Shown here: piece after piece, positions 5,987 through 30,542 of the stretch
Position numbering within the stretch: position 1 is the first letter of the stretch
How the letters are laid out: every line of letters begins with the position of its first letter
From: Myxococcaceae bacterium
GTDB taxonomy: Bacteria > Myxococcota > Myxococcia > Myxococcales > Myxococcaceae
Direction of reading: 5' to 3'
DNA: 40,427 nucleotides
NCBI GenBank assembly: GCA_017881345.1
Contig: JADGQZ010000256.1
Span: 1 to 40,427, forward strand
Translations under genes and position numbers: made by a program
Notes under the pieces: model-generated
The model's input: only the letters and a program-made list of their open reading frames with translations
Told to the model about the DNA's origin: nothing
The model's database searches: none

Positions 5987-6057
5987 CCTGGAAACGGCGC
6001 ACCCTCGAGGCGCGATTGCCCTATGCTCCGCGCCCCACCCTCTCCACCGAGGCAGAA

Positions 6058-6883
6058 GTGCTGCGTTCCTTCCCCCAGGTTCTTCTCTCCGTCGCGCTGG
6101 CCGCGACCTCTGCGCTGGCCCAGTCCGCGCCGAAGCTCGATCTCCCACGCCCGAGCCCGAAGGGGTCGGTCAGCCAGACGGTCGGCCTGACCGACATCTC
6201 GATCGCCTACTCGAGCCCGGCGGTGAAGGGCCGGAAGATCTGGGGCGAGGTGGTGCCGTTCGACCAGCTCTGGCGTGCCGGAGCCAACGAGTGCACCAAG
6301 GTCACGTTCTCGACCCCGGTCTCCATCGAGGGCAAGCCGGTCGCGGCGGGGGCCTACTGCATCTTCCTGCTTCCCCAGAAGACCGGCTGGACGTTCATCC
6401 TGAGCAAGAACACCGAGGGCGGAACGGCCGAGTACAAGCAGAGCGAGGACGCGGTCCGGGTCCCGGCCACCGCCACGGCCATCTCGCCCCGCGAGCGCAT
6501 GGCCTTCGAGATCCTGGACTTCGACGACGAGAAGGGCACCCTGGCCATGGAGTGGGAGACCCTGCGGGTGGGCGTGAAGTTCACCACCGGCACCCGGCAG
6601 CGTGTCCTGACCGAGATCCGCGCCCTCAAGGGTGACGACTGGAGGCCGTACAACGCCGCCGCGCGCTACCTCCTGGGCGCCAGTCTCGAGCCCGCGCTGG
6701 CGATGCAGCTGGCTGACCGTTCCATCCAGCTCAAGGAGGAGTGGAACAACGTCTGGACCAAGGCCCAGCTGCTCCACGCGGCCGGAAAGAACCCCGAGGC
6801 GCTGGCCGCCGCGCAGCGGGCCCAGACGCTGGGCAAGGCCTCCAAGAACTTCTTCGAGGCCGACGACGTGGCCAAGGCCCTGG

Positions 6884-6900
<17 letters not shown>
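6058..6900 (+). CDS. DUF2911-type secreted protein
   Basis: Signal peptide MLRSFPQVLLSVALAATSALAQ; SQTVGLTDISIAYSSPAVKGRKIWGEVVPFDQLWRAGANE motif. Confidence 0.8.
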
Positions 6901-8503
<1,603 letters not shown>

Positions 8504-8541: not shown

Positions 8542-9744
8542 CTACGTTCGGTCCCGGTCTTCCGGTCCGTGACGGGTCACCCGGACCACCACCTCCCGGT
8601 AGATCTCCTCCACCCGTGAGACGATCGGCCCCGGCTGGAACCGCGCCAGCGCCGAGGCCCGCGCCGCCCGTCCCATGGCCGCCCGCCGCGCGGAGTCCTC
8701 GAGCAAGGCGAGGGCCGCCGCTGCCATGGCCCCCGGGTCGCGCGGCGGCACGAGCCAGCCGGTCTTGCCGTGGGTCACCACCTCCGGCACCCCGCCCACC
8801 TCGCTCGCCACCACCGGGACACCCGAGGCGAGCGACTCCAGCGCCGCGAGGCCGAAGCTCTCCTGTTCGCTCGGGAGCAGGAAGAGATCCGCGTGGGCGA
8901 AGAGGTCCCCGAGCGAGCGCCGCTCACCGGAAAAGGCCACCGCGTCACGGACTCCGAGCGAGGTCGCGAGCGCCTCGACCGGCCCGCGCTCCGGCCCGTC
9001 GCCCACCAGCACCAGCACCGCGGGCCGCCTGCGCCGCACCTCGGCCAGCGCGCGAACCGTGTCCCCCACCCGCTTCACCGGCCGAAAGTTCGAGGCGTGG
9101 AGCAACACCGCCGGGCGCCTCCCGGGACTCCAGTCGAGGGCGGGAAAGAGCGCCGGCACCTCACCCGCCCCGTCGTCGAGCGGATGGAACGCCTCGGGAT
9201 CGACGAAGTTGGGCACGACCGAGATCTGGAGGCTCGGGGACAGACCCAGGGTCGCCGTGGCCACCCGGCGCAGCCAGGCGGACGGAGTCATGACCGCGTC
9301 GCTCCCGAGCGCCGCCTCGCGCACCTGGCCGCGCATCGCCGCGTCGTGCCCGAGCCCCGTGACGTCCGTCCCGTGAAGAGTGATCACCAGCCCCGGTGGA
9401 CGCCGGCCCTGATCGCGCACCAGCTCCCGGGCGAGCAGCGCGGCCGGCCCGTGCGGCAGAGCGTAGTGCATGTGCAGGAGGTCCAGCGACTCGCGCACCG
9501 TCACCTGGGCCATGGCGCGCGCCAGCGCCATCGGCCGACCGACCGCGCCCGACGGCGGTCGCGGTGACGTGTCCACCTCGTGCACCGTCCACGGACCGTC
9601 GCCCGCGAGGCGCACCGGCACCCCGGCGGAGAAGACGTGCACGCGGTGCCCACGCGCCGCCAGCTGCATCGCCAGCTGAGACGCGGCGACGCCGCTCCCG
9701 CCCACGGTCGGGAAGCAGGCGATGCCCACGCCCAGCGTGCTCAC
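8542..9744 (-). CDS. bshA: N-acetyl-alpha-D-glucosaminyl L-malate synthase BshA-like glycosyltransferase
   Basis: GIACFPTVGGSGVAASQLAMQLAARGHRVHVFS N-terminus typical of BshA; GT4 fold motifs (SEQESFGLAALE); GTGA overlap with bshC. Confidence 0.87.
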   Translation of the reverse strand: MSTLGVGIACFPTVGGSGVAASQLAMQLAARGHRVHVFSAGVPVRLAGDGPWTVHEVDTSPRPPSGAVGRPMALARAMAQVTVRESLDLLHMHYALPHGPAALLARELVRDQGRRPPGLVITLHGTDVTGLGHDAAMRGQVREAALGSDAVMTPSAWLRRVATATLGLSPSLQISVVPNFVDPEAFHPLDDGAGEVPALFPALDWSPGRRPAVLLHASNFRPVKRVGDTVRALAEVRRRRPAVLVLVGDGPERGPVEALATSLGVRDAVAFSGERRSLGDLFAHADLFLLPSEQESFGLAALESLASGVPVVASEVGGVPEVVTHGKTGWLVPPRDPGAMAAAALALLEDSARRAAMGRAARASALARFQPGPIVSRVEEIYREVVVRVTRHGPEDRDRT

Positions 9745-11345
9745 GGGCGCACCGTCCGGACGTCCGGTGAGAGCGACGCCGCGGCCGCCACGAGGCTCGA
9801 GACCAGCGTGCGCGGGCCCACCTCGGCGGCGATGGCCCAGAATCCGTGGACCCGCTCCTGTGGCCGTCCGCCGGGATGGAGCGCCGCGGTCACCTGGTTC
9901 AGCGCCTCGAGCGCCCCGGTCCCCTCGCCGCTCGAGGCGAGCACCGCGCGCTGGAGCCGGCCGATGAAACGATCCACCCCGCGCGCGACGTGGGCCTTCG
10001 TCTTCTCCACGTTGCGGGCGAGCTTCGGGTCGAGTCCGGCGGCGTCGGGGCGCAGCGCCTCGAGCTCGCGCGCGATGGGCCCGAGCAGCCGCTCCCGGAG
10101 CGAGCCGTCCATCCACTCCGGCCAGGCGTGGAGCCGCGCGGCGAGGGCGTGCACCGGCTGGTCCGTGTCCTCGGGCGACAGGCGCAGCCGCTCGAGCACC
10201 CGGGCCGTCCACGGGTCCACCACCCGGAACCGCGCCCGCGCGCCGATCATCGGCAGCTCCACCCCGGCGAGCTTGTACAGAGGAGGAAGCTGCGCGAAGT
10301 ACGCGCACTCGGCCGGACCACCGAGGTACCCGGCCGTGGGCAGCAGGGTGTCCTGGACCAGGGGCCGGAGCAGGGCCGAGGTGCTGAAGCTCAGCGGATC
10401 ATCGGCGAGCCGCGTACACATCTCCGCCAGCGACACACGGCCGAGCGGGGTGCAGAAGCCGTCGCCGTCGCGGTCGGGCCGGAAGCGGGGACCCTCCAAC
10501 CCTGCTGGATGGAAGAACGCCAGCGAGGCATCCGCGCGGGCCGGCACCTGGGCGTGGAACCCGCGGCGGACCAGCTCCGCGGAGCGTTCCTCCAGGAGCA
10601 CCCCGATGGCGTCGCGTTCCTCGAGAGCGAAGCGGACCAGGGGCGCGGCGCGCGCGGCCATGATCGGCGTCCGCGGATCGAGCAGGACGAGCCCCTCGTC
10701 CGCGAAGAGCTCCGCGAGGACACCCGCGAAGGCGGTTCCCGGAGAACGCCCCGCGACGTAGTGCCGCGCGAGGAGGGCCGCCACCTCGGTTCCATGGGGC
10801 AGCGGGGCGAGCGCGCGCGACACGGTGGCGAGCTGGACGTCGATCTCCGGAGGAAGCTGCCGATGGGCGAGCGACACCCGGGCCTGGGCGCTCGACTCGG
10901 CGGGGAGCCGGCCGGAGATCCAGTTGCCCCGGACGCACCCGTCGAAGTGGGCGACCTCCGCCCAGTCGTGGTCCTCGGTCTGCAGCCAGAAGACCGGAAT
11001 GCACGGGCGCCCCGTGCGTTCGCCAAGCCACCGGGCCCGCGCCACCGCGGTCGCCGCCTTGTGCAACGTGTACAGCGGGCCGAGGAAGATGCCGACCTGT
11101 TGCCCGGTGACGATGCAGGTCGTTCCCGGCCGCCCCAGCGACGCGATCGCCGCAGTGCGCGCCGCAGAAGCTGGCAGGGCGGATGCCTGTCGCTGCAGCT
11201 CCTCGACCACTCCCTGCATCGGCCGGCGGCGGGCTGCCCGCGCCGCCGCGGCATCCCAGGCCTCCGGGTCGAGGGGTCTCGAGGGCAGGAGCGTCGCCGC
11301 CGCGGCTTCCCCGGCGATGAACTGCGCGAAGAAGTCCGAAGCCAT
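9741..11345 (-). CDS. bshC: Putative bacillithiol cysteine ligase BshC
   Basis: TCIVTGQQVGIFLGPLYTLHKAATAVARARWL...PVFWLQTEDHDWAEV signature; ATG 11345; 3' overlap with bshA. Confidence 0.9.
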   Translation of the reverse strand: MASDFFAQFIAGEAAAATLLPSRPLDPEAWDAAAARAARRRPMQGVVEELQRQASALPASAARTAAIASLGRPGTTCIVTGQQVGIFLGPLYTLHKAATAVARARWLGERTGRPCIPVFWLQTEDHDWAEVAHFDGCVRGNWISGRLPAESSAQARVSLAHRQLPPEIDVQLATVSRALAPLPHGTEVAALLARHYVAGRSPGTAFAGVLAELFADEGLVLLDPRTPIMAARAAPLVRFALEERDAIGVLLEERSAELVRRGFHAQVPARADASLAFFHPAGLEGPRFRPDRDGDGFCTPLGRVSLAEMCTRLADDPLSFSTSALLRPLVQDTLLPTAGYLGGPAECAYFAQLPPLYKLAGVELPMIGARARFRVVDPWTARVLERLRLSPEDTDQPVHALAARLHAWPEWMDGSLRERLLGPIARELEALRPDAAGLDPKLARNVEKTKAHVARGVDRFIGRLQRAVLASSGEGTGALEALNQVTAALHPGGRPQERVHGFWAIAAEVGPRTLVSSLVAAAASLSPDVRTVRP

Positions 11346-11370
11346 GCCAGATTGCACCGTACCAGTGCCC

Positions 11371-13857
11371 ATGCACCCATCCAAACGCGCGCGTCGCGTC
11401 GTGCTTGCCCCGATGGCTCTCTCCCTGCTGCTCTCCACCGCCCACGCTGCACCCACGCTCCGCCCCTCTCAGCCCGATGGAGCGCGGCTGGAACGCTGGC
11501 TCGATCGCCTGCTGGTGGTGGGAGGCGTGCTCTACGTCGCTGCCCACCCGGACGACGAGAACACCCGCCTCCTGGCCTACCTTTCCAACCATTCGCTGCT
11601 TAGAACCGGCTACCTGTCGGTGACGCGCGGCGACGGAGGGCAGAACCTCATCGGCCCGGAGCTCGGGCCGGGGCTGGGTCTCATCCGAACCCAGGAGCTG
11701 CTCGCGGCGCGGGGCATGGACGGCGCCGAGCAGCTCTTCACCCGGGCGCGGGACTTCGGCTACTCGAAGAGCCCCGAGGAGTCGCTCTCCATCTGGGGCC
11801 ACGACGCGATGCTGGCCGACGTGGTGCTCGCCATCCGGCGCCTCCGCCCGGACGTCATCGTCACCCGCTTCCGGCTGGAGGCCGGCGACACCCATGGGCA
11901 ACACACCGCCTCGGCGCGCCTCGCCGTCGAGGCGTTCACCCTCGCGGCGGACCCGTCGTACATGCCGGACGCCGAGCACCGCCGGCTCGGTCCGTGGAAG
12001 GCGCTGCGGGTGGTGTGGAACGAGAGCAACTTCTTCGGGAAGTCCGACGCGGAGCTGATGAAGTCACCGCACCTGGACGTGGGCGGCTACGACCCCTGGC
12101 TCGGGCTCTCGTACCCGGAGCTCGCCGCCGACAGCCGCAGCAACCACCGCAGCCAGGGATTCGGCGCGGCCCGTCGCCGCGGACCGACGCCCGAGGCCTT
12201 CCACCTCCTCGCTGGCGAGCCGATGAAGGACAGTCCCCTGGACGGGCTGACGATGGATTGGTCGCGCGTCCCCGGGACGGCACGCCTCGTCTCCGAGCTG
12301 AAGCGGGCGCGCCAGGCGTACCGGACCGCGACCCCCGAGGCCGCGCTCCCCGGCCTGCTCGCGGCGCGCGCCGAGCTGCGAAAGCTGCCCGAGAATCCAT
12401 GGAAGCAGGCAAAGCTCGCGGAGCTCGATCGGGTGGTGCTCGCCTGCGCCGGGCTCTTCGGTGACGTCACCGCGGACCGCACCACCACCTCGCCTGGAGG
12501 CAGCGTGGTCCTCACCACCAGCGTGCTGCTCCGTCGTCCGGCGCAGGTGGCGCTGAGCTCGGCACGCCTCGGCGCGCAGGCGCTGGCTCCCCCCTCGCCC
12601 CTCAAGCCGGGCATCCCGCTCGAGACGAAGACCACCTTCGAGGTCCCGGCGGACACGCGGCTCTCCAACCCGGCCTGGCTGGACTCGCCGCAGGAGGGCC
12701 TCTACCCGGTGAGCGATCCGGCGCTGGCCGGGCTGCCCGAGGAGCCCGCGCCGCTCGAGGCCGAGCTCGTCTTCGCCTTCGGGAGCGAGTCGATCTCGCT
12801 GCGGCGACCGGTGGCCTACAAGTGGACCGATCCCGTGCTCGGTGAACGGTACCGCCGGCTGGAGGTCCTCCCGCTGGTGACGGTGGATGCCACCAGCGGT
12901 CTACTGCTCTTTCCGGACGCCGCCGCGCGTCCGCTCGACGTGACCGTGCGCAGCGTGCTCGGGGCGAGCGGCACTCTCGCGCTCGAGCTGCCCGCAGGAT
13001 TCTCCGCCGAGCCCGCCAGCGCGCCATTCACGGTGGCCGCCGGCGGCGAATCGACGGTCCGATTCAAGGTGACCCCTCCCCGCGCGGCGGCGCGGGGGAC
13101 GCTGCGGGTCGTGGCCACGGTGAAGGGCCAGCGGTACGACCGCGGGCTGCGGCGCATCGACCTCCCGCACATCCCCGTCCAGACCTGGCTCCCTCCGGCG
13201 ACGGTGCAGCTCACCCGCGCCGACGTGGCCCACGCGCGACGGCGCATCGGCTACCTGCCCGGCCCCGGCGACGAGGTCCCCGCCGCGCTCCGCCAGGCCG
13301 GCTACGAGGTGACGCCCCTCTCGCTGGCCGACCTGCGGGACGGGACCCTGAACCGCTTCGACGCGGTGGTTTTCGGGATCCGGGCGTTCAACGTGGAGCC
13401 GCAGCTGCAGGCGCTCCATGGCAAGCTCATGGACTACGTGGGCTCGGGCGGGATGGTGCTCGTGCAGTACGTGACGAGCAACTTCATCTCCAGGGCGCCA
13501 CCGGACCTCGGGCCCTTTCCCTTCACCATCGGGCAGGGACGGGTCACCAACGAGACCGCGGCCGTGGAGACCGTGGCCGACCCGGTGCTCGCCGCGCCCA
13601 ATCGCATCGGACCCGACGACTGGGCGGGCTGGGTCCAGGAGCGCGGGCTCTACTTCGCCGAGAAGTGGGACCCGCGCTACGCGACGCCGCTGTCGATGCA
13701 CGACCCCGGCGAGCCGCCGCTGAAGGGGTCGGTGCTGGTGGCGCGTTCCGGCAAGGGCGCCTTCGTCTACACCGGGCTGTCGTTCTTCCGGCAGCTCCCG
13801 GCGGGGGTCCCGGGCGCGTTCCGGCTCTTCGCCAACCTGGTGGATGCGGGTGGCTGA
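11371..13857 (+). CDS. Secreted PIG-L (LmbE-type) deacetylase with long C-terminal extension
   Basis: Signal peptide MHPSKRARRVVLAPMALSLLLSTAHA; AHPDDEN, TRGDGGQN, HGQHTASA zinc-deacetylase motifs; C-terminal GATase1/ThuA-like stretch (RIGYLPGPGDEVPAALRQAGYEVTPLS). Confidence 0.85.
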   Translation: MHPSKRARRVVLAPMALSLLLSTAHAAPTLRPSQPDGARLERWLDRLLVVGGVLYVAAHPDDENTRLLAYLSNHSLLRTGYLSVTRGDGGQNLIGPELGPGLGLIRTQELLAARGMDGAEQLFTRARDFGYSKSPEESLSIWGHDAMLADVVLAIRRLRPDVIVTRFRLEAGDTHGQHTASARLAVEAFTLAADPSYMPDAEHRRLGPWKALRVVWNESNFFGKSDAELMKSPHLDVGGYDPWLGLSYPELAADSRSNHRSQGFGAARRRGPTPEAFHLLAGEPMKDSPLDGLTMDWSRVPGTARLVSELKRARQAYRTATPEAALPGLLAARAELRKLPENPWKQAKLAELDRVVLACAGLFGDVTADRTTTSPGGSVVLTTSVLLRRPAQVALSSARLGAQALAPPSPLKPGIPLETKTTFEVPADTRLSNPAWLDSPQEGLYPVSDPALAGLPEEPAPLEAELVFAFGSESISLRRPVAYKWTDPVLGERYRRLEVLPLVTVDATSGLLLFPDAAARPLDVTVRSVLGASGTLALELPAGFSAEPASAPFTVAAGGESTVRFKVTPPRAAARGTLRVVATVKGQRYDRGLRRIDLPHIPVQTWLPPATVQLTRADVAHARRRIGYLPGPGDEVPAALRQAGYEVTPLSLADLRDGTLNRFDAVVFGIRAFNVEPQLQALHGKLMDYVGSGGMVLVQYVTSNFISRAPPDLGPFPFTIGQGRVTNETAAVETVADPVLAAPNRIGPDDWAGWVQERGLYFAEKWDPRYATPLSMHDPGEPPLKGSVLVARSGKGAFVYTGLSFFRQLPAGVPGAFRLFANLVDAGG

Positions 13858-13951
13858 AACCGAGCGCTGGGGCAGACTCTACGCCCTGGTCCTCGGCGCT
13901 CTGACGCTGGAGATCGCCGCTCTCTGGCTGCTGGAGCGGGTCTTCCGGTGA
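13844..13951 (+). CDS. 35-aa single-TM microprotein between PIG-L and symporter (not in ORF track)
   Basis: Read by hand: MRVAETERWGRLYALVLGALTLEIAALWLLERVFR*; overlaps PIG-L 3' end by 14 nt; its TGA overlaps the symporter GTG start (GTGA). Confidence 0.6.
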   Translation: MRVAETERWGRLYALVLGALTLEIAALWLLERVFR

Positions 13952-15609
13952 GCGCGCTCGACTGGGCGGTGCTGGTGCTCACGCTGGTGGGCATCGTCGC
14001 CTTCGGCAGCTGGCGGAGCCGCGGGGTGCACACCACCGAGTCCTACCTGCGCGCGGGGAAGGACATCCGCTGGTGGACGATCGGTCTCTCGGTCATCGCC
14101 ACCCAGGCCAGTGCCATCACCTTCCTCTCGGTACCGGGGCAGGCGTACCAGGATGGGTTGGGCTTCGTGCAGTTCTACTTCGGGCTGCCGATCGCCATGG
14201 TGCTGCTCTCGGCGCTGGTGCTGCCCGTGTACCACCGGCTCCGGGTCTACACCGCCTACGAGTACCTGGAGCAGCGCTTCGACCGGCGCACCCGGCAGTT
14301 CACCGCCCTGCTCTTCCTGATCTCGCGCGGGCTCGCCTCGGGCCTGGCGATCTACGCCCCGGCGCTGGTGCTCTCGGCGGTGCTGGGATGGCCGGTTCTC
14401 TGGACCACGCTCGGCCTCGGCGCCGTGACGATTGTTTACACCGTCGCAGGCGGGAGCCGGGCGGTGAGCCGGACGCAGACCGCGCAGATGGCGGTCATCC
14501 TGGTGGGCCTGGTGGCCGCCTTCGGGGTGGCGGTCACGCTCCTGCCCCGGGGCTTCTCCTTCGGCCGGGGAGTGGCGCTCGCCGGGGCGCTGGGAAAGCT
14601 CCAGGGTGTCGACACCTCGCTGCGGCTCGACACGCGCTACACGCTCTGGTCCGGGCTCCTCGGCGGCCTCTTCGTGCAGCTGGCCTACTTCGGCACCGAC
14701 CAGTCGCAGGTCCAGCGCTATCTGGCAGGAGGGCCGCTGGCCGAGAGCCGGCGCGGGCTCCTGATGAACGGGCTGCTCAAGGTGCCGATGCAGCTCTTCA
14801 TCCTCTTCATCGGAGTGATGGTCTTCGTCGTCTACCAGCTCACGCCACCGCCCCTCTTCTTCAACCGGGCAGAGCTGGACCGGGTGCGGGCCACGCATCC
14901 GGTGGAGGTGGGCCGGCTGGAGGCGACCCAGGCCCGGCTCTTCGCCGAGAAGCGGCAGGCCATCGACGCCTGGATCGCCGACCCGGAGAGCGTGGGCGCG
15001 CTGCGCGCCGCCGAGGGGAAGGTGCAGGCGCTCCGGAAGGAGACCGGTGCGCTGGTGGCGAGGACCCATCCGGGGGCCGACTCGAAGGACGCGGACTTCA
15101 TCTTCCTCCGCTTCGTGCTCGACCACTTCCCCCGCGGGCTCATCGGGCTCCTGGTGGCGGTCATCCTCTCGGCGGCGATGTCCGCCAACTCGGCGGCGCT
15201 CTCGTCGCTCGGCGGTACCACGGTGGTGGACTTCTACCGGCCGCGTCACCCGGACGCGCCGGACGCTCGCACCCTCGCGGTCGCGCGCTGGTCCACGGCG
15301 GGGTGGGGCATCGTCGCGGTGGTCTTCGCGACGTTCGCCTCGCTGCTCGACAACCTCATCCAGGCGGTGAACGTGCTGGGCTCGCTCTTCTACGGACCGA
15401 TGCTCGGCGTGTTCGTGGTGGGCTTCTTCATCGCCCGGGTCGGCGGTCGGGCCGCGTTCTGGGCGACGGTGGCAGGTGAGATCGCGGTGCTCGCTGCAGC
15501 AGCGCTCGGCGGAGTGGGGTTCCTCTGGTACAACGTGCTCGGATGCGCCGTGGTCGTCGGGCTCGCCCCGCTGCTGCAGCGCGTCTGGTCCCGTCCCTCG
15601 CCCGTCTAA
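13948..15609 (+). CDS. Sodium:solute symporter family (SSS) transporter
   Basis: SWRSRGVHTTESYLRAGKDIRWWTIGLSVIATQASAITFLSVPGQAYQDGLGFVQFYFGLPIA; multiple TMs. Confidence 0.9.
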   Translation: MSALDWAVLVLTLVGIVAFGSWRSRGVHTTESYLRAGKDIRWWTIGLSVIATQASAITFLSVPGQAYQDGLGFVQFYFGLPIAMVLLSALVLPVYHRLRVYTAYEYLEQRFDRRTRQFTALLFLISRGLASGLAIYAPALVLSAVLGWPVLWTTLGLGAVTIVYTVAGGSRAVSRTQTAQMAVILVGLVAAFGVAVTLLPRGFSFGRGVALAGALGKLQGVDTSLRLDTRYTLWSGLLGGLFVQLAYFGTDQSQVQRYLAGGPLAESRRGLLMNGLLKVPMQLFILFIGVMVFVVYQLTPPPLFFNRAELDRVRATHPVEVGRLEATQARLFAEKRQAIDAWIADPESVGALRAAEGKVQALRKETGALVARTHPGADSKDADFIFLRFVLDHFPRGLIGLLVAVILSAAMSANSAALSSLGGTTVVDFYRPRHPDAPDARTLAVARWSTAGWGIVAVVFATFASLLDNLIQAVNVLGSLFYGPMLGVFVVGFFIARVGGRAAFWATVAGEIAVLAAAALGGVGFLWYNVLGCAVVVGLAPLLQRVWSRPSPV

Positions 15610-15622
15610 CCGGAGAGCCCAC

Positions 15623-16216
15623 ATGCCACTGACGCGCAAGTTGCTCCTCAGCTGCTGTCTCGCCCTGTCGCTCCCCGCCTTCGCACAGGGTGCAGCCGCG
15701 CCCGCCGTGCAGACCCCTGCCCCGGCGGCCCCTGCCGCACCGGCGTCCACGTTCCAGTCGGACGTGGTCGCGGTGCTCGGACACGTGCAGAAGGAGCTGG
15801 TCGGGCTCGAGCAGGCCATGCCGCAGAACAAGTTCAACTGGCGGCCGGCCAAGGGCGTCCGCTCGGTCGCCGAGGTGTACCTGCACGCCGCCGGTGCGGG
15901 CTACTTCTTCGGGAAGATGCTCGGGTTCGAGATCCCGGCGGACATCGCCGCGCAGATGAAGACCTACGAGACGAGCACCACCGACAAGGCCAAGATCCAG
16001 AAGGCTCTCGACGACTCCTTCGCCTGGTTCGGCAACCAGGTGAAGTCCATGCCCGACTCCGAGCTCACGAAGAGCATGGACTTCTTCGGCCACCCGGCGA
16101 CGAAGCGCGCCGTGGTGCTGACCGCGCTCGGTCACTACCAGGAGCACCTGGGCCAGTCGATCGCCTACGCCCGCTCCAACGGCGTGGTGCCGCCCTGGAG
16201 CAAGAAGGGCAACTAG
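15623..16216 (+). CDS. Exported DinB-superfamily protein
   Basis: Signal peptide MPLTRKLLLSCCLALSLPAFAQG; DinB-like NWRPAKGVRSVAEVYLHAAGAGYFF and ALGHYQEHLGQSIAYARSNGVVPPWS. Confidence 0.83.
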   Translation: MPLTRKLLLSCCLALSLPAFAQGAAAPAVQTPAPAAPAAPASTFQSDVVAVLGHVQKELVGLEQAMPQNKFNWRPAKGVRSVAEVYLHAAGAGYFFGKMLGFEIPADIAAQMKTYETSTTDKAKIQKALDDSFAWFGNQVKSMPDSELTKSMDFFGHPATKRAVVLTALGHYQEHLGQSIAYARSNGVVPPWSKKGN

Positions 16217-16304
16217 CAGACGTGGTGCCGCCAGGGGGTTGCCGCTTTCGAGCAGGCGCCCACCGCAAGTAGGGTCCGCGCTCTCACGCCCAGGGGGTTC
16301 ACCC

Positions 16305-16985
16305 ATGTCGCTGTCGAGGAGAGCGCTGCTCGGAACCGGAGTCGCACTGGCTGCCGTTCGCGTCGAGGCCGCGGGGAAGGACGCAGGCTCGCCGCCTGCC
16401 GGCCCGCCCGCCGACGGATGCGGCGATCGCATGCCCGAGATTCCCGCCGACAAGCTGACCGATGCCCAGAAGAAGGCCGCGGCGGAATTCCTGGCCAGCC
16501 GGAAGGTCCCGGTGTTCGGGCCGTTCGTGCCATTGCTCCGCAGCCCCGAGGTGATGCTCCGGGCAACGGCGATGGGCGACTACCTCCGCTACCGGAGCGT
16601 GCTCCCTCCGAAACTCAACGAGCTCGCGATCATCGTCACCGCCCGGCACTGGAGTCAGCGCTACGAGTGGGGGCTCCACCAGCCCATCGCCCTCAAGGCA
16701 GGGGTCTCGCCCGAGGTCGCCGCGGCCGTGGCCGAAGGGCGAAGACCGCCGAAGCTCGACGCCGACGAGCAGCTGGTGCTCGACTTCGTCCAGGAGCTGC
16801 TCCACAACCAGGCGGTCTGTGACGAGACCTACGCGGCCGCGGTGCGCCGGTTCGGTGAACAGGGCGTCATCGACCTCTGCGGCGTCTGCGGCTACTACAC
16901 CTTCCTCGCGATGGTGCTGAACGTGGCGCGCACGCCGATCCCACCGAACGGCCCCGCTCTCGCGCCGTTCGTCTGTGGTCGGTGA
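16305..16985 (+). CDS. Carboxymuconolactone decarboxylase (CMD)-family protein with Tat-like signal
   Basis: MSLSRRALLGTGVALAAV twin-Arg leader; LNELAIIVTARHWSQRYEWGLHQPIALKAGVSPEVAAAVAEGRRP. Confidence 0.82.
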   Translation: MSLSRRALLGTGVALAAVRVEAAGKDAGSPPAGPPADGCGDRMPEIPADKLTDAQKKAAAEFLASRKVPVFGPFVPLLRSPEVMLRATAMGDYLRYRSVLPPKLNELAIIVTARHWSQRYEWGLHQPIALKAGVSPEVAAAVAEGRRPPKLDADEQLVLDFVQELLHNQAVCDETYAAAVRRFGEQGVIDLCGVCGYYTFLAMVLNVARTPIPPNGPALAPFVCGR

Positions 16986-28677: not shown

Positions 28678-28799
28678 GGTCACTGACACGGCGCGCGAAC
28701 GGGTTTACCCCTACCGGTCGGTCGGTGGGAAGGCTTGCTCAACCCCCCGTTCCTACAAGGGTCGCCGGCCGACAGGCCCGTCGCCTAGGGTGAGCTGCC

Positions 28800-30542
28800 G
28801 TGCCGAATCTCCTGGCCATGTCCTTCGAGGGCGCGCTCTGCCCGGCGTTCGACCTGCGCTGCCTCCACCCTGGCGCGACGCGTCCCGACGGCTGGGGCCT
28901 CGGGTACTACCCGCCGGGAGAGCAGTCGGTGACGGTGCACAAGGAAGCGGCGCCCATCCACGGCAGCCCGCAGTCGGAGTTCGTGCGCCGGGCGGACCAC
29001 AAGGAGTCGTCCACCTTCGTGCTCCACCTTCGCACGGCCCTCTGGGGCGCCCTGACCGACGCGAACACCCAGCCCTTTGCCCGTGCCTGGGGCGGCCGCG
29101 AGTGGCTCTTCGCGCACAGCGGGAGCCTGGAGCGACGGCCGATCCTGCTCCCCGAGCCGCTCTTCGAGCCGGTGGGGGCGACCGACAGCGAGTTCGTCTT
29201 CTGCGAACTCCTGAACCGCATGGCCGCCCGGCGCTGGCGCTCGCTCGGCGAGGCGGACCCCCAGGTGCTCGCCGACTGGCTCCTGGACCTGAACACGCTC
29301 GGCACGCTCGACGTGGTGCTGACCGACGGGCTTGACCTCCTCGCCTGGGCCGACCGCGAGCGCAGCGGCCTGACCAGCTGGCTCCTCCGCCCGCCCTACG
29401 GGCCGATCGCCCTCGGTGACGCGCAGGTCGGCGTCGAGTTCGGCCGCGACGGGGCGCGGAACCGCAAGGGCGTCATCGTCTCCAGCGCACCGCTGGAGGT
29501 CAGCGGCGCGGGGCCAGCTGCGGAGTGGACGCCGGTGCCGGCGGGAACGCTCTGGCTCGTGCGCCAGGGCGAGCTGCGCGCCGAGGCGCGATCATCCGCC
29601 GCTCCGATGGCCGGGGCCATGCCGCGCCGGATCCGCAAGCTGGACCGGCCTCCTCAGGGGGAGACCCGGCGGCTGGACGTCGTCCACCGCACCGTCTACC
29701 GCTACGCCGAGCCGGTGGAGCGAAGCACGCACGTCTTCCGCCTCACCCCGATGCACGACCGGAAGCAGAGCCTCCTCTCGCACTCGTTCGAGGTATCGGT
29801 CGAGGGCCAGGCCCGCGAGTACGACGACGTCTTCGGCAACCGGGTGCGCCGGCTGAGCGTGAACACGCCCTTCACCGAGATGGTCATCGAGGCCCGGAGC
29901 CGGGTGGAGCTGCTCGACACCGCGCCGCTGGCCTCCCGCCCGCTGCGCTCACACTCCACCTTCCCGCTGGTCTGGCTTCCCTGGCAGCGCAACCAGCTCG
30001 CCCCGTACCTCCTGCCTCCGGAGCTCCCGGAGAGCGAGCTCGGAGATCTCACCGACTACGCGATGAGCTTCGTGCGGCGGAACGACGACGACCTCTTCGA
30101 CACCCTGATGGACGTCAACCAGACCATCTTCGAGGAGTACCGGTACGTCCCGGGGAGCACTCACCTCGGCACCACCGCCTACCAGGTGCACGCCACGCGG
30201 CAGGGCGTGTGCCAGGACTTCGCGAACCTCTTCATCTGCATGATGCGGCTGCTCGGTGTGCCCGCGCGCTACGTGTGCGGCTACGTCTACACCGGCCCGC
30301 GGAGCTCGCCGCCCCATCCGCACGCCGAGGCCAGCCACGCCTGGGTGCAGGTCTATCTCCCCGAGGAGGGCTGGGTGGGCTTCGATCCGACCAACGGAAT
30401 CCTGACCCAGACCGACCACGTCCGGGTCGCCTGCGGCCGGGCCTACTCGGACGCCACGCCGACCTCGGGAACCCTCTTCGTGGGAGGGCGAGGCGAGGAG
30501 CTCGAGGTCTCGGTCCGGGTGGAGCTGGCGAACGGCGTCTGA
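28800..30542 (+). CDS. Class II glutamine amidotransferase-like domain fused to transglutaminase-like protease domain
   Basis: MPNLLAMSFEG...DGWGLGYYP...NTQPFARAWGGREWLFAHSGSL (GATase II-like); LDVVHRTVYRYAEPVERSTHVFRLTP...GVCQDFANLFICMMRLLGVPARYVCGYV...EASHAWVQVYLPEEGWVGFDPTNG. Confidence 0.9.
   Translation: MPNLLAMSFEGALCPAFDLRCLHPGATRPDGWGLGYYPPGEQSVTVHKEAAPIHGSPQSEFVRRADHKESSTFVLHLRTALWGALTDANTQPFARAWGGREWLFAHSGSLERRPILLPEPLFEPVGATDSEFVFCELLNRMAARRWRSLGEADPQVLADWLLDLNTLGTLDVVLTDGLDLLAWADRERSGLTSWLLRPPYGPIALGDAQVGVEFGRDGARNRKGVIVSSAPLEVSGAGPAAEWTPVPAGTLWLVRQGELRAEARSSAAPMAGAMPRRIRKLDRPPQGETRRLDVVHRTVYRYAEPVERSTHVFRLTPMHDRKQSLLSHSFEVSVEGQAREYDDVFGNRVRRLSVNTPFTEMVIEARSRVELLDTAPLASRPLRSHSTFPLVWLPWQRNQLAPYLLPPELPESELGDLTDYAMSFVRRNDDDLFDTLMDVNQTIFEEYRYVPGSTHLGTTAYQVHATRQGVCQDFANLFICMMRLLGVPARYVCGYVYTGPRSSPPHPHAEASHAWVQVYLPEEGWVGFDPTNGILTQTDHVRVACGRAYSDATPTSGTLFVGGRGEELEVSVRVELANGV

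Follow-up and report, generated by a model that had tools for sequence, protein, structure and literature searches.

An exported PIG-L enzyme, a microprotein, a sodium symporter and a DUF2911 protein as a possible accessory module of bacillithiol metabolism outside the cytoplasm of diderm bacteria

In the periplasmic salvage of glutathione, the exported enzyme gamma-glutamyltranspeptidase cleaves the leaked thiol, whose parts are then re-imported. Here we describe a candidate counterpart for bacillithiol, encoded in a 40,427-nucleotide stretch of DNA from a Myxococcaceae bacterium (contig JADGQZ010000256.1, hereafter the window), in which the bacillithiol synthesis genes bshA and bshC are accompanied by genes for an exported PIG-L metallohydrolase, a microprotein with one transmembrane segment, a sodium:solute symporter of the SSS family and an exported DUF2911 protein. 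The logic would be that of glutathione salvage, whereas the thiol, the enzyme fold and the carrier are all different. According to one proposal, no bacterial thiols are more widespread than bacillithiol derivatives (PMC6282198), and Bacteroidota rank with the phyla in which the largest numbers of species encode the complete pathway (PMC12719100). Thiol-conjugate amidases and the recycling of the sugar half are already known, and both are placed in the cytosol. In particular, the cytosolic enzymes Mca and Bca free glucosamine-inositol (GlcN-inositol) or glucosamine-malate (GlcN-malate) for recycling (PMC4101496, PMC4360819), and reviews describe the cleavage of bacillithiol conjugates as cytosolic, followed by export of the product. 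Literature searches, with most subscription journals outside their scope, returned no link of an exported PIG-L protein, an SSS carrier, this microprotein family or DUF2911 to bacillithiol.

The gene content, gene order and distribution described below indicate that the PIG-L enzyme, the microprotein, the SSS carrier and the DUF2911 protein very probably belong to bacillithiol metabolism. More specifically, they may form an extracytoplasmic accessory module of this metabolism in diderm bacteria, comprising a conjugate amidase and a re-uptake of GlcN-malate that feeds BshC, a reading to which we assign a probability of about 0.47.

In the window, which is contig C38 of a Myxococcales draft assembly (genome G000; 4.8 Mb, 517 contigs, completeness 83%), bshA, for N-acetylglucosaminyl-malate synthase (8542-9744, minus strand), and bshC, for the bacillithiol cysteine-adding enzyme (9741-11345, minus strand), overlap by 4 bp. 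Both are unambiguous, with scores above the curated cut-offs (353.5 bits to TIGR03999, cut-off 273.7, and 345.3 bits to TIGR03998, cut-off 265.8, respectively). A spacer of exactly 25 bp separates the bshC start at 11345 from the divergent start, at 11371, of the gene for the 828-residue exported PIG-L metallohydrolase (11371-13857, plus strand; PF02585, 51.7 bits; NPCBM-associated domain; signal peptide by inspection). The open reading frame (ORF) of the 35-residue microprotein (13844-13951, plus strand), with one transmembrane segment and the motif W-x3-Y-x2-V, here W-GRL-Y-AL-V, overlaps the PIG-L stop at one end and at the other the start of the SSS symporter gene (13948-15609, plus strand; TIGR00813, 226 bits, cut-off 184; PF00474, 122 bits), and such overlaps of a few bases follow the pattern of translationally coupled genes. 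On the far side of bshA lies the gene for the 280-residue exported DUF2911 protein (6058-6900, plus strand; PF11138, 160 bits, cut-off 27), for which GTG at 6058 is the likely start and TTG at 6016 a possible one. A first-pass annotation, made from the window alone and covering 8542-16985, had placed every gene that it named correctly; the identity of bshA and bshC, their 25-bp distance from a divergent gene run and the lack of a conventional BshB gene in the window all hold. It missed the DUF2911 gene, and the conservation of the microprotein was not knowable from the window. The locus should be extended to approximately 6058, so that the DUF2911 gene is included.

Across 145 Myxococcales genomes, the exported PIG-L is present in 63 and BshC in 61, and all 61 genomes with BshC also have PIG-L (Fisher p ~4e-39, not corrected for the tree). 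The two PIG-L genomes without a BshC match are drafts. In G094 the contig carrying PIG-L starts at bshA, so that bshC may merely be missing from the assembly, and in G124 PIG-L is seen only as a fragment. Four genera (g4, g6, g7 and g26) hold genomes with and without these genes, and within them PIG-L and BshC are concordant. At the loci examined, including those of four genomes from other Myxococcota families, PIG-L is followed by SSS and lies beside bshC and/or bshA, except at contig ends. In other words, bshC, PIG-L and SSS recur jointly across Myxococcota, in an arrangement far beyond chance.

Groups in which these genes are mostly unclustered provide a stronger test of the bacillithiol link. 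In Acidobacteriota (198 genomes), a BshC match is found in 104 of the 107 genomes with PIG-L as against 32 of the 91 without it (p ~4e-23, again without tree correction), and in 94 of 107 as against 23 of 91 when the 19 weakest BshC matches are discounted; of the three exceptions, at least G715 and G556 have bshA directly before PIG-L. Clustering of the bsh and PIG-L genes recurs in this second phylum, as indicated by the order DUF2911 - DUF2911 - bshC - bshB1 - bshA - PIG-L - microprotein - SSS at the acidobacterial locus L211. A cross-phylum scan retrieved at least 582 PIG-L relatives, and BshC, scored genome-wide with TIGR03998, was present in all 48 of the PIG-L genomes tested outside Myxococcota. 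Bacteroidota alone are weak evidence for co-occurrence, because BshC is near-universal there (291 of 297 sampled genomes, PIG-L aside), and hence Acidobacteriota were used. In Bacteroidota loci, no bshC was found within 10 kb of PIG-L with a trimmed-domain profile built on Myxococcota, which might miss divergent copies; a supposed adjacency of the two genes in this phylum was not borne out within that distance. The check that the first-pass annotation had proposed for its reading, namely co-occurrence of PIG-L and SSS with bshA and bshC, has been run and did not refute it, the association of PIG-L with BshC being near-perfect in Myxococcales, strong in Acidobacteriota and complete among the genomes tested elsewhere. 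Accordingly, the tie of PIG-L and SSS to bacillithiol synthesis is well supported.

Two observations on BshC-like proteins emerged from the acidobacterial genomes. In G715 and G556, which have no BshC match, an unannotated protein of ~257 residues is encoded directly before bshA (L208:2332-3525 and L209:4832-5725, both plus strand). The beginning of this protein, GQQ...HDSDHD, is reminiscent of GQQ...TEDHD in the core of BshC, a profile comparison is no more than suggestive (hhalign probability 10%, P 0.003), and the protein might be a short substitute for BshC. In addition, weak and short BshC matches (model positions ~320-380, in frames mostly of ~400 residues) occur in G564, G577, G589, G601, G621, G638, G664, G680, G696, G704, G735 and others, some of these genomes carrying PIG-L and DUF2911 and others DUF2911 only; they possibly represent a divergent BshC-like family.

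The AlphaFold model of the PIG-L enzyme (mean predicted local distance difference test, pLDDT, 90.7), together with Pfam and profile matches, delineates the PIG-L domain, Ig-like domains rich in beta structure and, at the C-terminus, an alpha/beta domain of flavodoxin-like type. The HxDD+H residues H59, D61, D62 and H178 and the active-site residue R106 are invariant in 50 of 50 homologues, and the metal-site spacer of 116 residues falls inside the superfamily range of 97-148 (PMC4101496). The model of Mca, the mycothiol-conjugate amidase (TIGR03446), matches all 50 homologues and is the best-matching curated family, with most members and the best E-value, followed by MshB, BshB1 and BshB2. 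The window protein reaches just 15.7 bits with the BshB1 model TIGR04001 (cut-off 182.5) and is not listed for TIGR04000 at E <= 0.01; since all curated-model scores are far below the cut-offs, we do not assign it to Mca, Bca or BshB. The PIG-L fold and the HxDD+H metal site are thus shared with Mca and with Bca/BshB2, but those proteins are short and cytosolic, whereas the enzyme described here is exported, spans approximately 800 residues with its Ig-like and flavodoxin-like domains, carries an HG[HQ]H motif and travels with a carrier. Likewise, BshB1 shares the fold and the gene clusters, but it is a separate, cytosolic protein, often encoded beside the module. Signal peptides, assessed by inspection and simple hydropathy, are near-universal among the homologues, and that of the window protein is clear, in line with the export that had been read from its N-terminus in the first-pass annotation. 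At L034, L036, L041, L050, L052 and L059, in several Myxococcota without bshB1, the signal peptide is short or weak, and those proteins have perhaps been re-localised to the cytosol. A sequence search of the PDB gave no relative for the full-length protein, and Foldseek searches with the PIG-L and DUF2911 models returned only part-matches, to PIG-L-domain, Ig-like and TPR proteins.

The carrier gene adjoins PIG-L in 69 of 80 cross-phylum loci. The nearest solved relatives of the SSS protein are SMVT, NIS, SiaT, SMCT1 and vSGLT, and among them SiaT, SMVT and SMCT1 are carriers of anionic substrates, which counts in favour of a re-uptake function. Between PIG-L and SSS, a small ORF matching W-x3-[YF]-x2-[VLI] is found in 93 of 97 loci from Myxococcota, Bacteroidota and other groups (a few of which may be the same species twice), as compared with 0.9% after mononucleotide shuffling of these gaps. 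It is also present in 40 of 41 additional, acidobacterial loci, for a combined 133 of 138, several of the acidobacterial loci being the same place counted twice. In an alignment of 84 microproteins, the W is kept in 82 and the Y in 81, and the selection of these ORFs for hydrophobicity does not explain the W and the Y. The window microprotein has no Pfam match, and six homologues gave nothing above cut-off in Pfam or NCBIfam. The microprotein is, accordingly, a real, conserved and as yet unannotated family of one-transmembrane proteins, and we infer that it regulates the SSS carrier or forms a small subunit of it. Small partner proteins of SSS/SSF symporters are exemplified by the pairs ActP-YjcH and PanF-YhdT, in which, as here, a gene for a short membrane protein immediately precedes that of the carrier; the YjcH and YhdT partners are, however, larger, have more transmembrane segments and are covered by Pfam models, whereas members of the W-x3-Y family have 33-62 residues, a single transmembrane segment and no model above cut-off. 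In five Chitinophaga-type loci (L073, L099, L106, L110 and L135) the gap is longer and holds a second small hydrophobic ORF of ~50-65 residues, glycine-rich (e.g. ...IVVGLVIGFEIKRVHIGLLIGLGLGL...). These loci were excluded from the alignment, the most hydrophobic ORF of the gap being a different protein; the motif test still detects the W-x3-Y ORF in each of them.

Clustering of the genes neighbouring PIG-L brought out an exported DUF2911 protein at 43 loci, encoded on the bshA side in Myxococcota and, in many Bacteroidota and some Acidobacteriota, downstream of SSS and mostly on the opposite strand. Among the 145 Myxococcales genomes, 62 have a match above the PF11138 cut-off, that is, all 61 with BshC plus G094. 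In Acidobacteriota, 111 of 116 genomes with DUF2911 have BshC, and 21 of the 116 are missing PIG-L, so that DUF2911 may track bacillithiol more than PIG-L as such. None of the 14 control genomes has DUF2911, the three that carry BshC (Bacillus subtilis, Thermus and Deinobacterium) among them. As far as shown by the literature searched, in which one paper mentions DUF2911, the co-distribution of DUF2911 with bacillithiol genes is new. The structural model (pLDDT 91) combines TPR-like helices with a beta domain to which no solved structure is clearly related, and a sequence search of the PDB gave no relative. A second DUF2911 copy is present in the host genome, away from the bsh locus (G000:C196:2432-2863, plus strand).

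Taken together, these features are consistent with the following sequence of events. Outside the cytosol, the exported PIG-L enzyme would encounter bacillithiol that has escaped in the form of S-conjugates or disulfides or has leaked out as the thiol, and would hydrolyse its cysteinyl-glucosamine amide, the bond cut by Mca and Bca in the Gram-positive cytosol. The SSS protein, as a sodium symporter, would take back the GlcN-malate, assisted by the microprotein, and BshC would add a new cysteine to it, while the DUF2911 protein might be a periplasmic helper, in a binding or chaperone role. Such salvage and re-uptake would be a reasonable mechanism, as it accounts for the export of the enzyme, for Mca as its nearest curated relative, for the carrier, for the dependence on bacillithiol genes and for the coexistence with bshB1. 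If true, a conserved, outward-facing arm for cleavage and uptake would change the view of thiol recycling, electrophile detoxification and cross-feeding in Gram-negative bacteria, and it would provide the first functional context for DUF2911, for a large family of exported PIG-L proteins and for an unannotated microprotein family.

A number of observations weigh against this salvage model. The window PIG-L matches the Mca model only weakly, at 37.7 bits against a cut-off of 277, and the whole superfamily shares this match. The third-ligand motif is HG[HQ]H, as compared with HPDH in BshB and MshB, and the malate-contacting Arg109 of BshB is not conserved, the aligned position being T, G or N; substrate recognition must consequently differ in detail. 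Substrates vary widely within the SSS family, and 11 of the 80 cross-phylum PIG-L loci, several of them on cut contigs, are without an adjacent SSS gene. The co-distribution in Myxococcales is partly due to physical linkage, as the loss or transfer of a whole cluster would yield the same table. Lastly, the 32 acidobacterial genomes with BshC and without PIG-L indicate that the module is optional.

The main rival explanation is that PIG-L belongs to synthesis, replacing BshB as deacetylase of N-acetylglucosaminyl-malate (GlcNAc-malate), either outside the cell, in which case GlcNAc-malate would leave and SSS would bring GlcN-malate back in, or in the cytosol where the signal peptide has decayed. 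Indeed, no bshB1 was found in the window genome, at its completeness of 83%, nor in approximately 15 further Myxococcales in which bshA and bshC are retained. The window assembly contains one other PIG-L protein, on contig C503, with 54 bits to TIGR04001 against the cut-off of 182.5, and the module PIG-L of this genome retains a good signal peptide. Moreover, in five of these other genomes, which retain bshA (G010, G094, G129, G144 and G054), the module PIG-L is the sole PF02585 protein found, with a signal peptide that is weak or short in three and good in two. This suggests that PIG-L can stand in for BshB in these five, within the limits set by their completeness (79-98%) and by start-codon uncertainty. 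On the other hand, bshB1 scores above cut-off in 45 Myxococcales genomes, where it lies beside the module, between bshC and bshA where examined, and this coexistence makes a PIG-L function beyond basic deacetylation likely. As the clusters also contain no GlcNAc-malate exporter, and the closest curated model is Mca rather than BshB1 or BshB2, we regard split or replaced synthesis as unlikely. An intermediate picture, in which a dedicated extracytoplasmic arm of diderms itself supplies GlcN-malate in some lineages without bshB1, so that part of thiol synthesis would run via the periplasm, is speculative and rather improbable.

The outward orientation of enzyme and carrier would also suit a harvest, from prey or the surroundings, of thiols or further amides of amino sugars as a source of cysteine or carbon, instead of a recycling of the cell's own bacillithiol. 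Many of the bacteria concerned, such as myxobacteria, Flavobacteriia and Chitinophaga, live in soil or the sea as predators or scavengers. Scavenging, however, needs no BshC of the cell's own, yet PIG-L tracks BshC closely, and the clustering with bshA and bshC indicates the cell's own pathway, which leaves this explanation, too, an unlikely one. The known substrates of PIG-L proteins are varied N-acylglucosamines (PMC4101496), and chitobiose deacetylases are among the best Foldseek matches of the PIG-L domain; PIG-L and SSS could therefore act on another compound of the N-acetylglucosamine type, such as a glycan or a peptidoglycan fragment, with an indirect association with bacillithiol through lineage or lifestyle, all the more as phylogenetic dependence is still in the counts. 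Given the bsh clustering in two phyla, the co-occurrence where the genes are unlinked and the same distribution of DUF2911, an unrelated substrate is quite unlikely. A full version of the first-pass reading would add to the pathway a DinB-fold protein as periplasmic thiol transferase and a CMD-family protein as its redox partner in the periplasm. The corresponding genes follow SSS on the plus strand, at 15623-16216 (exported DinB_2-fold protein with a signal peptide; PF12867, 47.6 bits) and at 16305-16985 (CMD-family protein; PF02627, 30.2 bits), and by inspection the N-termini agree with the signal peptide and, for the CMD protein (SRRALLG), with the Tat-type export that had been reported. 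BstA/YfiT, of the same DinB_2 fold, is a bacillithiol S-transferase (PMC4360819), and the window DinB keeps three His by inspection, but it is exported and is not conserved with the module. DinB adjoins PIG-L only in the sister genome (L031) and on one Eisenbacteria contig, and CMD had no match in 20 related loci; as neither gene accompanies the module outside the genus, save for DinB in Eisenbacteria, both were rejected as core parts. A conserved role for a periplasmic DinB transferase is unsupported and this full version very improbable, whereas the first-pass proposal of an extracytoplasmic step linked to bacillithiol is upheld by the co-occurrence and by the conserved export of PIG-L.

Two further features of the window deserve mention. 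An AMP-binding gene resembling fatty-acyl-CoA ligases (6884-8503, minus strand) separates the DUF2911 gene from bshA in the window genus, and no counterpart turned up in the other related loci that were searched. Farther along, a single ORF at 28794-30542 (plus strand) joins a class-II glutamine amidotransferase domain to a bacterial transglutaminase-like region (GATase_4, Bact_transglu_N and Transglut_core).

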